This document shows positions 2,826-24,669 of a stretch of DNA of 24,752 nucleotides, in pieces. Both the position numbers and the translations under genes were made by a program. The stretch spans positions 1-24,752 of the IMG/VR virus record IMGVR_UViG_3300014720_000177; one strand, given 5' to 3'. The notes beneath the pieces were generated by a model. It had not been told where the DNA came from. It worked only from the letters and a program-made list of their open reading frames with translations, and did no database searches. How positions within the stretch are numbered: the stretch's first letter is position 1; every line of letters starts with the position of its first letter. This stretch comes from a virus.

Positions 2826-4715
2826 TTATATCTCACAGGTAGAACCAGTGCAAGCAAGTGTCTGCACACCTTCGACATTATCGTCATGCTCAACCAAGAC
2901 ATCCCAGTGAATGTCCTTCGGCATCTTAGCTAACAAAGTTTCATAATCCTCTTTGGAGCACTCTTCATATGGAGCCTGTCGATACGTGCCACCATCGTAA
3001 GGCAAGAAGGATACCCCACTGATCTCATCGAAGTTTCTCCACACCCAAGCACCCACATCCATCCACTCCTCTTCCTTGACAGAGATAGTGACAGAAGGTT
3101 TGTGCTCACACCAATGCCGTTGATACATTAGCCACAGATCTAAATGCTGCACTGCATCTAGATCCTCACGGGTACGAGCGTGGTCTGGTGATTTCATTGG
3201 GAATGAAAACACTACGGTGCTCTCAGGACGCATGACACAGTCTTCTGCAGGTACTCCAGCCTCTATAAGAAACGCCGTAAGAGGATCTTTTTTATCTCCC
3301 CTAACCCTACGAATATAATAATCACTATGTCGAGTATGAATACCAGAGGCAGAATCAACAAGTTGGCTAACAGTGCCACTAGGTTTGATGCAAGTAATAG
3401 CAGTAGACTGAGGGATTCCCAGATTTGCTGCAAAGTCCATGTTGGTGCTAACGGCGACTTGGCGTAGCTGTTCAAGATTCTTCTTAGTGCTGTCACAGAT
3501 TGTACCCATCCATTCGTTATCAAGAATACCAATTAATGATACACCCAACAGACGCTCTTCTTCAGTGTTCTTCTGCCATATCTTGCGTAGATACGGGAAG
3601 TGTGTAAGTGTAGATTGGAACGTGCCAAGTATGGTAGCAATACGCACCTTGCGTGACAAGGATTCCAGTGTGTCTTCTTCACGTACTACTACTTCTGTGA
3701 GGTTACAAAATTGATATGGCCTTAATATAATTTCCGAGCAGGGATTAGTTCCAAAGTCATAGTCACTGTCCCGTCTGCCATTCTTCTTTGCTTGAGTCTT
3801 ACTTGCGTCCCTAGAGAAGATGCCTCGTTCTCCAGAATGACTGTTGTAAAGGCTTGTCCATTCTGCAAGAAACTGTCCAATATCTGGTTTAGCGTTGTAA
3901 GTTGCTGAGTTGTTAGCCAAAGCCCGTTGCCCGTTATGTGTCCACCAGTCTCCAGTTTTTGCATGGCGCATCCTATCATCTTCTAAATCTGACAAGCTGA
4001 TCATTGCCGATCTACGCACCCCACCCACAACAACAACTTCCCCGATCTTACAGAGAATATCATGGCATTCAATTGATGTAAGTTTCCTACCAATTGCTGA
4101 TCTGAACTTGGCAATAGTAAACTTAAATAATTCATCCAGAGGCGCAGGCCCAGAAGCTCTCCCCCCAAAAGTTTTAAGTCTTGCTCCGGCTGGGCGGATC
4201 TTGCTAAGGTCATACTTTGCCACCTCCCCAGAGTATAGTAGAGCGATGAGTTGACGTAATGCTTTAGCCCAGCCTTCTTTGGAATCCGCAACAGAAATAA
4301 CAGTCTCAGAATCAAACAACTGGTCCGGCACTTCAGGTAGCTGATCGACATATCTGTGCTCCACAGAGAATCCTACACCCGTACCACACAAGAGAATATA
4401 CATTGCCTCATCAAAGGCTTTTGGGTCATCTATGGGCAGATAGGAGCAGTTGTACCCTGCGGTATTGTCTCTGTCCAAAGCCTTGCCAGCGGTCATTATA
4501 GCCCTCATAGAAGGCATTACTTCTAGGTTGATGATTGTATCTCTTAGCTCTTTGTATAAATCATCTGTCACAGTGTAGTTAAACTTCTCCCGTAGATGTT
4601 TAACTATGAATGTTGTGTAACGATTGACAGTCTCCTCCCAGTGCTCTCTTCGTTTCATGTCAGAAAGATAGCGTGAGTACCGTGATTTGGCTATGTAAGT
4701 TGAATAGGGGGTCAT
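2826..4715 (-). CDS. Class II (adenosylcobalamin-dependent) ribonucleoside-triphosphate reductase
   Basis: It reduces ribonucleotides to deoxyribonucleotides using a B12-generated thiyl radical, supplying dNTPs for phage replication. Counting from ATG 4715, the conserved residues of the monomeric RTPR family are present: Cys90 in GYNCSYLP, the NPCSE active-site motif (Cys326, Glu328), the partner Cys337, a KPSGT loop near 445, and the C-terminal redox pair CTGSTC (Cys622/Cys627). At 629 aa it is shorter than the roughly 740-aa Lactobacillus enzyme. I chose ATG 4715 because GGAG lies 6-7 nt upstream; a longer start at 4751 would begin inside the terminator. No separate activase or second subunit is seen, consistent with class II. 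Confidence 0.93.
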   Translation of the reverse strand: MTPYSTYIAKSRYSRYLSDMKRREHWEETVNRYTTFIVKHLREKFNYTVTDDLYKELRDTIINLEVMPSMRAIMTAGKALDRDNTAGYNCSYLPIDDPKAFDEAMYILLCGTGVGFSVEHRYVDQLPEVPDQLFDSETVISVADSKEGWAKALRQLIALLYSGEVAKYDLSKIRPAGARLKTFGGRASGPAPLDELFKFTIAKFRSAIGRKLTSIECHDILCKIGEVVVVGGVRRSAMISLSDLEDDRMRHAKTGDWWTHNGQRALANNSATYNAKPDIGQFLAEWTSLYNSHSGERGIFSRDASKTQAKKNGRRDSDYDFGTNPCSEIILRPYQFCNLTEVVVREEDTLESLSRKVRIATILGTFQSTLTHFPYLRKIWQKNTEEERLLGVSLIGILDNEWMGTICDSTKKNLEQLRQVAVSTNMDFAANLGIPQSTAITCIKPSGTVSQLVDSASGIHTRHSDYYIRRVRGDKKDPLTAFLIEAGVPAEDCVMRPESTVVFSFPMKSPDHARTREDLDAVQHLDLWLMYQRHWCEHKPSVTISVKEEEWMDVGAWVWRNFDEISGVSFLPYDGGTYRQAPYEECSKEDYETLLAKMPKDIHWDVLVEHDDNVEGVQTLACTGSTCEI

Positions 4716-22052: not shown

Positions 22053-22790
22053 TTAAATTGCCATCAGCGGTATGAAACGATTCTTTAATGTGCCATGCAC
22101 AACGATTGCAGGACTAGCTTTGGCAGTGTCGATGCCACCGTCACATGCTCTGCACTCAGTGCATAGCTTACGTTTGCCAGCTTCCTCACTGGCAGGACAG
22201 GCAAATTCTTTGGCAAGCAAGGGCTGATTAGCCAGCCGTACCCTGAAGGTACGGTATCCGAAAGACTGAGCTTGAAAGTGCTCATCCCCAGTGTCTACAC
22301 TTGCCATACACAGACGCATGATCCGTACGTCAGTCGAAGACTTGTGCCATTGATGGGTGTAGCCTGTCCAGCCTTTGGCAAATTCCAGCAGGGTTTGCCA
22401 CACTTCAAAAGGTACAGCGGCAGGGTCACCGTAAGTGCCAAGTCTAACTGTACGGTCTACGCAAGCCATAGATGCGGCACTAAGGCTTTCAGGGTACTGT
22501 CCAGCCCAGTACGACTTAGTCACTACAGTGACACCTTGGCCTAGGTTGACATAGCAAGATCCACCTTTGCCCCTACGGTGTTTGCAATCACCACACACTG
22601 CCTCATCCTCCAGTGCCTTGGCATTGTAGACAGGGGTCATGTTGTTGTCAGGCAGGATATACGTCTGCACCATGTTGCCTGTCTTGCGATTGCTAGACTT
22701 TGTAATTGCAATCACGACAATGGGTTTGCCATTGATAAGGGAAGGGCCACGGTAGATGACATAGCCTGTAGGCTTTTTAGACTTGGGCAT
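22053..22790 (-). CDS. Cysteine-rich conserved-type phage protein (245 aa)
   Basis: ATG 22790 has AAAGGAAA upstream. Cysteines cluster in CGDCKHRRGKGGSCYVNLGQ (near residues 66-85) and in FACPASEEAGKRKLCTECRA with CDGG (near 197-220), suggesting two zinc or Fe-S sites. The stretch LGTYGDPAAVPFEVWQTLLE and AKGWTGYTHQWHK is characteristic of a widespread uncharacterised phage family. The role is unknown. A copy of the 18-bp repeat ends 21 nt upstream of the start, inside the preceding gene. Confidence 0.75.
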   Translation of the reverse strand: MPKSKKPTGYVIYRGPSLINGKPIVVIAITKSSNRKTGNMVQTYILPDNNMTPVYNAKALEDEAVCGDCKHRRGKGGSCYVNLGQGVTVVTKSYWAGQYPESLSAASMACVDRTVRLGTYGDPAAVPFEVWQTLLEFAKGWTGYTHQWHKSSTDVRIMRLCMASVDTGDEHFQAQSFGYRTFRVRLANQPLLAKEFACPASEEAGKRKLCTECRACDGGIDTAKASPAIVVHGTLKNRFIPLMAI

Positions 22791-22801
22791 GATCTTTCCT
22801 T

Positions 22802-23020
22802 TCAGGAAGTTAGTGACGAAGCTTCGACAGTAGAATTGACTTGTGCATCAAGCTTCTCCGAAGCTGCTTGCACCACTTGCACAAGGGTTTTAAGCTCTGA
22901 AATCAGACCAAAAGCAGATTGCAAGCTTTCGTTAGCCTCTTCCATGCGGTCTGCATTCATCATGAGTACCATGTATTGAAGCTTGAATTCCAGTGCCTTG
23001 ATATTTTTTGCAATGTCCAT
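22802..23020 (-). CDS. Helical coiled-coil-type protein (72 aa)
   Basis: ATG 23020 has AAAGGA 6-7 nt upstream; a longer reading to 23065 would run into a hairpin. The product is one long helix, MDIAKNIKALEFKLQYMVLM then ANESLQSAFGLISELKTLVQ and AASEKLDAQ, so it is probably oligomeric. Its last codons include the 18-bp repeat (VEASSLTS). It is preceded by hairpin A1 (23042-23093). Confidence 0.7.
   Translation of the reverse strand: MDIAKNIKALEFKLQYMVLMMNADRMEEANESLQSAFGLISELKTLVQVVQAASEKLDAQVNSTVEASSLTS
22812..22829. repeat. 18-bp near-palindrome, copy 2 (upstream of 22790 start)
   Basis: On the + strand AGTGACGAAGCTTCGACA. It overlaps the last codons of the helical gene at 22802 and ends 21 nt before ATG 22790. 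The flank on the leftward side is CTAAC, as at copy 3. Confidence 0.7.
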
Positions 23021-23041
23021 TTCGGTTCCTTTCCTATACAC

Positions 23042-23093
23042 GGTTATTATTTTTATCCCTTTCACTTCGTTACAAGGGTAAAAATATATAACC
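23042..23093 (-). repeat. Hairpin A1 of the duplicated hairpin module
   Basis: Arms GGTTAT/ATAACC, ATTTTTA/TAAAAAT and CCCTT/AAGGG stack into one long AT-rich hairpin, 21 nt upstream of the ATG at 23020. The same layout, ATTTTTA...CCC...GGG...TAAAAAT, occurs at B1 (24251-24344). It would lie in the mRNA leader of the 22802-23020 gene. It could be a cruciform operator or an RNA leader element. Confidence 0.7.
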
Positions 23094-23120
23094 TATATGT
23101 GAGTGCATGTTTTATCTTTT

Positions 23121-23155
23121 GCAAAGTAAATGCCATATTCATGGCATGACTTTGC
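23121..23155 (-). repeat. Hairpin A2 of the duplicated hairpin module
   Basis: Stem GCAAAGT-aa-ATGCCAT / ATGGCAT-g-ACTTTGC (14 bp) around the loop ATTC. It lies 8 nt after the stop of the gene at 23164 and 28 nt before A1. B2 at 24385-24426 has a parallel sequence (GCAAATAC, ATGCCAAC and their complements). There is no T run, so it is not a simple terminator. Confidence 0.72.
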
Positions 23156-23163
23156 TCTTTTGA

Positions 23164-23379
23164 TCACGTGACGATCCTTTCCAATTGTTCAAGGGATACT
23201 GTTTCGACAGTGGAAATGGCTTGATTTTCAAAGCCATAGCCCAGTGCATCGATATGCTGTAAGACTTTGCGAGTGAGTATGGATGACCCTGCAATGCTGG
23301 CGAATGCCTTGGCACGATTGCATACAGGATAGACTTTGATTGTGCCGTAAACACCACGCAATTGAATTGTGATTTTCAT
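23164..23379 (-). CDS. Small hypothetical protein (71 aa)
   Basis: ATG 23379 has GGAGGT 9 nt upstream. The product (MKITIQLRGVYGTIKVYPVC, then RAKAFASIAGSSILTRKVLQ) is a strand-strand start with a helical middle that ends in a variable acidic tail. The early strand-helix style is shared with other small genes here. A repeat copy lies 22 nt upstream and hairpin A2 follows its stop. Confidence 0.7.
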   Translation of the reverse strand: MKITIQLRGVYGTIKVYPVCNRAKAFASIAGSSILTRKVLQHIDALGYGFENQAISTVETVSLEQLERIVT

Positions 23380-23401
23380 GATTCAAACCTCCGGTTTGGT
23401 T

Positions 23402-23419
23402 AGTGACGAACATTCGACA
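23402..23419. repeat. 18-bp near-palindrome, copy 3 (upstream of 23379 start)
   Basis: AGTGACGAACATTCGACA on the + strand, non-coding, ending 22 nt before ATG 23379. With flanking CT it forms a 20-bp dyad with one mismatch. This is the copy most clearly in a leader or operator position. Confidence 0.72.
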
Positions 23420-23430
23420 CTAAACCCTAG

Positions 23431-23545
23431 TGCCAAGGGCAAAGCATTAGCCTTGGATAATGCACATCATGCACTATCCATGACCGCCTGACACTTAGGG
23501 ATATCCCTAGGTATCAGGCAAGCAAGGAACAAAGGCTTAGCCTTT
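23431..23545 (-). other. Chain of alternative hairpins between two early genes
   Basis: The gap between the gene starting at 23379 and the stop of the 23537 gene carries CCAAGG/CCTTGG (23433-23456), GCATTA/TAATGC (23444-23463), GGATA(a)TGCA/TGCA(c)TATCC (23455-23479), GCCTGA...TAGGGATATCCCTA...TCAGGC (23486-23519) and AAAGGC/GCCTTT (23531-23545). The first three share bases, so they exclude each other. The last overlaps the stop codon of the 230-aa gene. No gene is seen. Confidence 0.65.
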
Positions 23546-24229
23546 GATGAGTACTGCAATCACCTTGGCAAGGTCAAGACCTTGCTGTGTAGCGATTAGC
23601 TTGATGGATGCGGCAAACGATTCTTCAGAATCGACATCAAGGGTTGCTGACTCAGTGACTACGTCACTTTCTTGTGTCGAAGCTTCGTCACTGTCGATGA
23701 CTTCGTCATCTCCGCCTTCCTCGGTCTTGCCTTTGGCAATCCCTGTGGACTCTGTTTTCTTGGACTTGGCTATCTTCTGGCGAAGATAAGCGGCACTGGC
23801 TGAAGAGATATCCATCTCTTTGGTGAAGGTTTGGACTTCAGTCCAATTCTCGGCAAGCCACATGGCATCGGAACGATCTTGGCGAGACATTTTTGACAAT
23901 GGGGTTGTTTTGATCAATTGCCCGAAATCCTTGTCGGATTTTCCTGTGATTGATCGCAATTCAATTAAAAGAATGCCGATTTCACGAAGCTTGCCGAGAA
24001 TATTTTTCTTCTGGCGCAGGATTCCAACATATGAAGAAGCGGCATGATCAATTGCATCGCCAAAGGTATGACCCTCAGTGCCATAGGGTCGACTCATTAA
24101 TTCTGCGTACTGGGCTTTGCCCTGTGTATGAGAATTCAAAGCTTTCGGCGAGACTTTCACACTTTCGGCAACCTTAGAGACTTTGGGGGTTGCAATGGGA
24201 GAAACTTTAGCGATGGCATTCGATTTCAT
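23537..24229 (-). CDS. Hypothetical protein with helical core (230 aa)
   Basis: ATG 24229 has AAGGAAA 8 nt upstream. The N-terminus is basic and Ser/Lys-rich (SPIATPKVSKVAESVKVSPK). The middle holds a helical domain, ILGKLREIGILLIELRSITG, then a DKDFGQLIKTTPLSKMSRQD and SDAMWLAENW segment. This recalls the general layout of small phage proteins with a 'GxFGxWL... AxWxAE' core, but I cannot place it in a family. Residues about 165-200 are acidic and disordered. It is the first gene of the leftward array in the window, after the palindrome-rich control region, so it may be among the earliest made. Confidence 0.7.
   Translation of the reverse strand: MKSNAIAKVSPIATPKVSKVAESVKVSPKALNSHTQGKAQYAELMSRPYGTEGHTFGDAIDHAASSYVGILRQKKNILGKLREIGILLIELRSITGKSDKDFGQLIKTTPLSKMSRQDRSDAMWLAENWTEVQTFTKEMDISSASAAYLRQKIAKSKKTESTGIAKGKTEEGGDDEVIDSDEASTQESDVVTESATLDVDSEESFAASIKLIATQQGLDLAKVIAVLIKG
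23675..23692. repeat. 18-bp near-palindrome, copy 4 (inside the 23537-24229 gene)
   Basis: TGTCGAAGCTTCGTCACT lies within codons for DEAST of the 230-aa protein. A second palindrome, AGTGACTACGTCACT, lies 6 bp to its left (23654-23668). An operator-like site in coding sequence is possible, or it is a chance copy of the repeat. Confidence 0.6.
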
Positions 24230-24243
24230 GGCAATTTCCTTTT

Positions 24244-24349
24244 CAAAGTTTTGGTTTATCTTTTTACAAACAAGAGGATTATTTTTATTCCCCTCTCACT
24301 AAAGTGGAGGGGTAAAAATATATCCTCTGTAAAAAGTAAACCAAGTTTG
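24244..24349. repeat. Hairpin B1: large near-perfect inverted repeat
   Basis: Successive arms pair around the loop AA at 24301-24302: CACT/AGTG, CCCCTC/GAGGGG, ATTTTTA/TAAAAAT, AGAGGAT/ATCCTCT, CTTTTTAC/GTAAAAAG, TTGGTTTA/TAAACCAA and outer CAAA/TTTG. That is about 46 bp in each arm with only small bulges. The core matches A1. It lies 15 nt upstream of ATG 24229, so it would be the leader of that mRNA or a cruciform in the DNA. Confidence 0.75.
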
Positions 24350-24384
24350 GCGAATCGGTTTTGGTTTGGCCTCCCGTATGAATA

Positions 24385-24426
24385 GCAAATACTAATGCCA
24401 ACGTCTTTTTGTTGGCATGTATTTGC
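24385..24426. repeat. Hairpin B2 of the duplicated hairpin module
   Basis: Stem GCAAATAC-ta-ATGCCAAC / GTTGGCAT-GTATTTGC (16 bp, one 2-nt bulge) around the loop GTCTTTTT. Related to A2 at 23121-23155. Confidence 0.72.
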
Positions 24427-24441
24427 CGCACACACGCATAG

Positions 24442-24478: not shown

Positions 24479-24513
24479 TGCCAACACGGGAAATGTCGCA
24501 TCGCAAAATCTAC

Positions 24514-24531
24514 TGTCGAATGTTCGTCACT
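24514..24531. repeat. 18-bp near-palindrome, copy 5 (right control region)
   Basis: TGTCGAATGTTCGTCACT, non-coding, at the left edge of the palindrome cluster 24533-24688 and about 285 nt upstream of the gene starting at 24229. It is the rightmost copy in the window. Confidence 0.7.
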
Positions 24532-24557: not shown

Positions 24558-24572
24558 TGAGAACCGTTCTCA
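24558..24572. promoter_or_regulatory. Palindrome TGAGAACCGTTCTCA (copy 1)
   Basis: A 6-3-6 perfect dyad. Its near-twin at 24620-24634 differs by one centre base, and both are followed by TTTAC on the right. Twin operator-like sites 62 bp apart, about six helical turns, are typical of a cooperatively bound repressor or activator; this is inference. Confidence 0.55.
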
Positions 24573-24594
24573 TTTACACTGAAAAGTTTGATAA

Positions 24595-24619: not shown

Positions 24620-24634
24620 TGAGAATCGTTCTCA
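24620..24634. promoter_or_regulatory. Palindrome TGAGAATCGTTCTCA (copy 2)
   Basis: Near-identical to 24558-24572, with shared flank TTTAC. The 7-1-7 look resembles a Fur box only loosely. Confidence 0.55.
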
Positions 24635-24669
24635 TTTACGGCATAGTCGCTTTCACTTTTTGGGTCTTT

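Follow-up and report, generated by a model that had tools for sequence, protein, structure and literature searches.

The window, by which we mean the whole stretch of DNA analyzed, makes up an entire IMG/VR record (24,752 bases) that was grouped with the HMO-2011-type podoviruses because of its replication genes and that, on this sequence evidence, is a 24.8-kb fragment of such a phage. Its DNA polymerase is 62% identical to that of Puniceispirillum phage HMO-2011 and 55 to 59% identical to those of Roseobacter phages CRP-1, CRP-345, and CRP-2, and the order of the integrase, primase, helicase, polymerase, and ribonucleotide reductase genes is common to the window and the HMO-2011-type phages. 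These phages are described as a dominant, broadly distributed marine viral group (PMC9038755). Two leftward genes, each preceded by a pair of hairpins (modules A and B), lie in a region judged to be early from a gene order like that of HMO-2011 and CRP-1. The module region had zero nucleotide matches in 50,697 phage records, and tblastn searches of the same records with the protein encoded downstream of module B likewise returned none.

Module A lies upstream of a 72-amino-acid (aa) open reading frame (ORF; positions 22802 to 23020, minus strand), to which no family was assigned, and module B lies upstream of a 230-aa ORF (23537 to 24229, minus strand), the first gene of the early region, which matches neither Pfam nor PHROG. 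The start codons proposed for both genes in an earlier, sequence-only reading of this DNA, at 23020 and 24229, are real: they are accompanied by the Shine-Dalgarno (SD) sequences GAAAGG and AAGGA, respectively, and the ATGs lie 11 to 14 nucleotides (nt) from the hairpin base, which the SD of the 72-aa ORF overlaps. Homologues of the 230-aa protein are encoded on eight IMG/VR contigs (L001 to L007 among them), and the first early gene differs between phage subgroups. Positions 22053 to 22790 encode a 245-aa protein that belongs to PHROG 2554, a family of unknown function; phages of Caulobacter, mycobacteria, Klebsiella, and Roseobacter encode relatives. In the nearest relative, L128 (231 to 430), an A-type hairpin is located directly 5′ of the homologue of the 245-aa gene, whereas in the window (22790 to 23102) the 72-aa gene intervenes between the two; by this comparison, the 72-aa gene looks like a gene gained within the leader. 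An operator-like palindrome lies inside its 3′ end.

All four hairpins described by the sequence-only reading are present where it placed them. Each was folded on the leftward (minus) strand, and z-scores were calculated against 200 dinucleotide shuffles per hairpin. In module A, hairpin 1, a short-type hairpin in the leader of the 72-aa gene (23032 to 23102), folds with an energy of −21.2 kcal/mol (z-score, −3.8; folded segment, 23030 to 23110) and hairpin 2 (23121 to 23155) with −17.2 kcal/mol (z-score, −4.9; 23118 to 23158). In module B, the long-type hairpin 1 in the leader of the 230-aa gene (24251 to 24344), which has an outer stem and a 5-nt bulge on its 3′ side, reaches −43.3 kcal/mol (z-score, −9.1; 24245 to 24360), and hairpin 2 (24385 to 24426) reaches −22.1 kcal/mol (z-score, −7.8; 24383 to 24428). 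None of the 200 shuffles folded as well as any of the four hairpins. Because both strands fold nearly equally well, folding alone cannot separate RNA from DNA.

The two modules have the same order and a common core (ATTTTTA/TAAAAAT around CCC/GGG), with 73% identity over 40 nt, and the paired differences between their arms that had been named before are all present. Such identity would suit hairpins that arose by chance or by a recent duplication, in which pairing is kept by identity alone, the latter being an objection that the sequence-only reading raised against itself. This explanation is refuted by z-scores as low as −9.1, by dozens of independent copies in other phages, and by the finding that A and B are each closer to their orthologues (88 to 91%) than to each other (69%). 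Hairpin A is 100% identical to its counterpart in L009, 91% in L122, and 89% in L118, and hairpin B is 88% identical to the L001 copy. By these comparisons, A and B are old paralogues; L118, L122, and L112 each possess two hairpins, a long one at the first gene and then a short one, and this arrangement therefore predates these lineages.

Distribution of hairpin 1 and covariation of its arms

The same hairpin lies directly upstream of the 230-aa homologue, on the same strand, in L001, L002, L003, L005, L006, and L007, where both arms are altered in concert. Further copies were identified by pattern scans for the core and with two covariance models: R1, built from seven members, recovered both window copies plus others, and R2 was a broad model used at a cutoff of E ≤ 0.01. 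Hairpin 1 of module B (model core, 24275 to 24328) scored 93.8 bits with R1 and 51.3 bits with R2, and that of module A (model core, 23041 to 23094) scored 47.2 bits with R2. Among the loci searched, R2 returned 82 matches, of which 78 are on the sense strand; pairing is kept as the stems change, the outcome for which the earlier reading had looked to covariance models of related phages. As a family, hairpin 1 is real and far larger than first described.

Each phage with hairpin 1 has between one and four copies. These phages comprise dozens of IMG/VR contigs and the isolates HMO-2011 (one copy at 54,081 to 54,155, 8 nt upstream of phage1322_74, and another that spans the record origin), CRP-1 (two copies), and CRP-345 (two copies). 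HTVC033P gave a single weak hit, with R1 only. The model searches found no hairpin 1 match in CRP-2, CRP-207, CRP-3, and phiM6, and the hairpin is therefore not essential to the HMO-2011-type group. A related polymerase is encoded by most of the larger, HMO-2011-size contigs that bear hairpin 1. Beyond the HMO-2011 type, the hairpin occurs in several copies in L138-type contigs, which are without the related polymerase, and it is also found in L156, which carries an SU10-like portal. The exact 18-mer CTTGAACTTTAGTGAAAG is present in 45 viral contigs, compared to approximately 1 occurrence expected, by our own estimate, in the sequence scanned, and in all but one of these contigs it tops a strong hairpin, with stems that differ.

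Among 84,980 prokaryote genomes scanned, there was one doubtful match (L177), which, together with L115, L095/L096, L113, L121, and L174, was set aside as an apparent chance match to the pattern; the L115 record still scores with R2, but its hit is a hairpin that pairs perfectly and lacks the conserved apex. No Rfam 15 family reached its gathering threshold; below threshold, the bare hairpin matched microRNA precursors (33.7 bits, versus a cutoff of 70), and there was one U6 match in the window and its relatives. Hairpins and promoters are unmentioned in the papers on HMO-2011-type phages that were checked. Taken as an RNA, hairpin 1 would constitute a new family, absent from Rfam, of a known general kind, the structured phage mRNA leader.

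Plain MAFFT alignment of the long hairpins misaligned the arms and was replaced by alignment of a subset and then by an apex-centered alignment. In the 69 distinct rows fitted to the covariance model, covariation was 0.437, compared to 0.171 in shuffles (0/500 of which reached the observed value) and at most 0.211 when the partners were slid, and 14/15 pairs were altered on both sides. The MAFFT alignment of 26 diverse members (A3) gave 0.374, compared to 0.166 when shuffled and at most 0.205 when slid. The objection that relatives might lack covariation thus fails for hairpin 1. Compensatory change had been read as selection on structure in both hairpins; this is supported for hairpin 1, in which such change is massive among relatives, but not for hairpin 2, whose arms are mostly conserved in sequence.

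The stems of hairpin 1 are rewritten with pairing retained, for example from CCCC/GGGG to CACAC/GUGUG, UAGUUC/GAACUA, or GUAC/GUAC, and the apex consensus YUUGAAC-N3/4-AGUGAAR is kept. One stem pair near the apex is C-G, A-U, or U-A and another is C-G, U-A, or G-C, with no unpaired case of either. Within the 3′ GUGA, the U, G, and A are present in 28/28 clusters and the first G in 27/28; on the 5′ side of the apex, the U preceding GA is present in 28/28 clusters and the G in 23/28. UUGAAC opposite GUGAAA would form a tandem G-A internal loop, likely sheared. The window B copy and that of L001 deviate from the consensus, with CUCCAC opposite GUGAGAG. Conservation of this kind suggests that the apex is also read by some factor.

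Hairpin 2, the sigma-54-type box, and other palindromes

Hairpin 2 of module A is an inverted repeat on the minus strand, GCAAAGTCATGCCAT/ATGGCATTTACTTTGC, and the same element is found in L009, L118, L122, and L112; the palindrome occurs in another form 5′ of hairpin 1 in the group of L006, L007, L108, L110, and L119. Seven of the nine pairs tested are invariant, and two are altered on both sides. A palindrome of this kind can also acquire apparent compensatory changes when a DNA-binding dimer recognizes its two half-sites. Hairpin 2 is missing before most hairpin 1 copies, and other subgroups have different conserved upstream elements. Given its conserved arms, its frequent absence, and a sigma-54-like box, the evidence does not support hairpin 2 as an RNA structure under the same selection as hairpin 1. 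The proposed two-hairpin module is therefore better described as a leader hairpin preceded by a palindrome of promoter/operator type, hairpin 2 of module A being probably a DNA element of this type.

The 3′ arm of the module A palindrome contains the sigma-54-type −24/−12 box TGGCATTTACTTTGC (23121 to 23135, minus strand), which fits TGGCAY-N5-TTGC with GG-N10-GC and is the only sequence in the window, both strands included, to match strictly (0.20 expected). A box starts 33 to 40 nt upstream of hairpin 1 in 10 of 58 distinct hairpins, which are not all independent (L118 and L122 are close relatives), compared to approximately 0.1 expected in 200-nt upstream regions from the frequency of the box in the loci; G016 provides an additional example, identified by eye. 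Several of the boxes, namely, those in L111, L118, L122, L005, and first-gene copies, lie outside any palindrome. Transcripts that began 26 nt past the T of TGGCA would have their predicted starts 7 to 14 nt before hairpin 1 (near 23109 for module A), and at this distance the hairpin would sit at the 5′ end of the mRNA.

Module A hairpin 2 thus matches sigma-54 (RpoN) promoters in motif and spacing, and its distance to the leader hairpin is conserved in relatives, whereas the inverted repeat of module B hairpin 2 (minus strand) has a GG-GC spacing of 11 rather than 10, fails the canonical pattern, and would be a poor box. A sigma-54 activator (PF00158) was not found in seven phage records, all of them partial; a host activator, which is possible, would then be needed. 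If the boxes are true promoters, some of these phages would make their early transcription depend on an alternative sigma factor of the host, and sigma-54-type early promoters in one subclade would represent a rare phage strategy.

Other elements were observed upstream of hairpin 1. A marine subgroup (HMO-2011, L107, L100, and L143) has a conserved element, CTGCAAYCAC..GCGAAACGGCA..GCAGA.GAT, approximately 50 nt before the first-gene hairpin, and L006, L007, L108, L110, L119, and L120 have a conserved TTGAC(A/G)GCC or similar sequence approximately 14 to 16 nt before hairpin 1. Were the latter read as a −35 box, the transcript start would fall within the 5′ arm. A promoter within the hairpin, with TTGAAC as its −35 box, was dropped as a candidate because the −10 is inconsistent and B and L001 are without TTGAAC.

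A near-palindrome, AGTGWCGAA..TTCGWCACT, is present in four copies (22812 to 22832, 23402 to 23422, 23674 to 23692, and 24511 to 24531), of which three are intergenic or at gene ends and one is inside the 230-aa ORF. Counterparts in related phages, such as GTCCGACAGCGGAC in HMO-2011 and GTCCAACGTTGGAC in CRP-1, show complete or near-complete identity among the copies of one phage, differ between phages, and are often located between hairpin 1 and the SD. By their sequence, palindromes of this type are operator-like DNA elements; on the same pattern of within-phage identity and between-phage difference, they were rejected as further RNA hairpins. Near the right end of the record, two copies of TGAGAAYCGTTCTCATTTAC (24558 to 24577 and 24620 to 24639), a palindrome resembling a Fur-type box, lie 62 nt apart.

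Hairpin 1 at the ribosome-binding sites of early genes

An SD and an ATG are located within 75 nt downstream of 50/55 distinct hairpins. The SD overlaps the stem in 22 of these 50, starts no more than 15 nt away in 11, and lies 18 to 44 nt downstream in 17; the last group weakens SD occlusion as a universal mechanism. Copies before second or third genes often begin 0 to 11 nt after the preceding stop codon and so need no separate promoter. Several phages have one copy per cistron, which, with the proximity to preceding stop codons, favors a local effect on each gene. The genes that follow hairpin 1 are mostly unrelated among themselves, which marks hairpin 1 as a cis element general to early cistrons rather than the autoregulatory site of one gene. 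The stem is followed by the A/G-rich SD sequence and no U-tract, unlike an intrinsic terminator, and the sole features returned by a terminator scan were inner stems of hairpin 2, which have a weak tail.

G-U pairs are rare in either orientation (sense, 1.5% of pairs; antisense, 1.2%), and the isolated mismatches, three G-U and four A-C, give no sign of a G-U preference; in a terminator-like control set the preference is also weak (31 G-U versus 21 A-C). Because G-U pairs are rare and show no strand bias, pairing reveals neither the strand under selection nor whether selection acts on RNA or DNA. Their scarcity could reflect strict Watson-Crick selection, template-switch correction of quasi-palindromes, or a DNA-level role. 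Under the last of these, hairpin 1 would be an operator, cruciform, or single-strand hairpin used in promoter recognition, replication, or recombination, its arms kept by DNA pairing or template-switch correction. The almost purely Watson-Crick arms and the unbiased G-U and A-C mismatches speak for such an element, as do wholesale A/T swaps in both arms between the close relatives L118 and L122. We nevertheless consider it unlikely: the unpaired GA/GA of the apex and the 3′ bulges are kept and not corrected away, the position of the hairpin tracks ribosome-binding sites on the coding strand, and its stems differ among copies within one genome, in which operator palindromes are identical or nearly so. 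Short of proof, RNA is favored by the link to ribosome-binding sites and by the retention of an apex and bulges that are unpaired.

We regard it as probable, with modest confidence, that hairpin 1 is a cis-acting structured leader or intercistronic RNA that controls the processing of, and ribosome access to, early-gene mRNA. What the sequences show is a real, conserved family with covarying arms, its position and orientation, and its spacing from the ribosome-binding site; we infer that it is transcribed, acts as RNA, and is cleaved or bound by a protein. In this reading, a conserved apex stands atop a long stem of Watson-Crick pairs, the lower end of which abuts or covers the SD; a cut by a host RNase III-type enzyme, or a protein binding the apex, would open or stabilize the message, and expression of the next gene would be set through processing of the mRNA and access for ribosomes. 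For module A, the promoter would reside in the palindrome (hairpin 2), and the transcript would start just ahead of hairpin 1. RNase III is a natural candidate because the stem is long: the predicted stems have 14 to 44 pairs, mostly 20 to 44, and thus provide the duplex of approximately two turns, in a leader or intercistronic spacer, that is expected of an RNase III site.

The nearest functional analogues would be the lambda N leader and the early sites of T7. The T7 early region contains long imperfect RNase III hairpins in leaders and intercistronic spacers, several per genome and near ribosome-binding sites, and hairpin 1 resembles them in placement, in copy number, and in proximity to ribosome-binding sites. 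We know of no common apex of the hairpin 1 kind among the T7 sites and, to our knowledge, HMO-2011-type phages have no T7-type RNA polymerase. The leader of lambda N has an RNase III hairpin just 5′ of the SD, where it gates translation of this first early gene; hairpin 1 likewise immediately precedes the SD but is repeated before several unrelated early genes, and no nut-like boxA/boxB was identified for it. The promoters of the N4 virion RNA polymerase are also hairpins repeated 5′ of early genes on the coding strand. Their stems are GC-rich and 5 to 7 bp long, with a 3-nt loop and transcription starting just past the hairpin, whereas hairpin 1 has 14 or more pairs and stands immediately before or over the SD, and in most copies there is little room for a transcription start between the two. 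We know of no N4-type virion polymerase in HMO-2011-type phages.

Hairpin 1 could instead be an antitermination RNA that, like put of HK022, binds the elongating host RNA polymerase and allows it to read through terminators of the early operon. The put RNA is likewise a structured early leader, near the early promoter, and hairpin 1, with its conserved apex, is located where the early region begins, just past putative promoters in many relatives. This role is improbable, since put comprises two adjacent stem-loops and hairpin 1 is a single long one, present in multiple copies, one per cistron, each tied to and abutting one ribosome-binding site, where overlap with the SD is frequent. We give a similarly low chance to hairpin 1 being bound by an RNA-binding protein of the phage that would later repress early translation: the near-invariant GUGA opposite a mostly conserved UGAA resembles a recognition site and overlap with the SD would serve repression, but no candidate protein was found, and the first early gene, without a family match, varies by subgroup.

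Compared with control of mRNA processing or ribosome access at individual genes, a broader proposal is more tentative and, in our judgment, somewhat short of an even chance. In it, hairpin 1 would be a new and widespread family of RNA leaders, in HMO-2011-type phages and at least one other lineage, through which a host or phage factor recognizing the near-invariant UGAA/GUGA apex switches early translation or processing, with sigma-54-type early promoters in one subclade. As a conserved, countable, and easily searched element, hairpin 1 offers a first handle on early regulation in HMO-2011-type phages, a specific motif that can be tested, and a way to mark the first early genes of metagenomic contigs.

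In L107 (approximately 3165 to 3310), and also in L091, L100, L145, L146, L155, and L173, one of the hairpins is followed by a gene for a small basic protein (MRIKPINPVAKALAQ...KKGKGSYNRKK). It matches Pfam ArfA (alternative ribosome rescue factor) with an E value of 4.5e-5, just under the cutoff, and is a possible phage ribosome-rescue protein.
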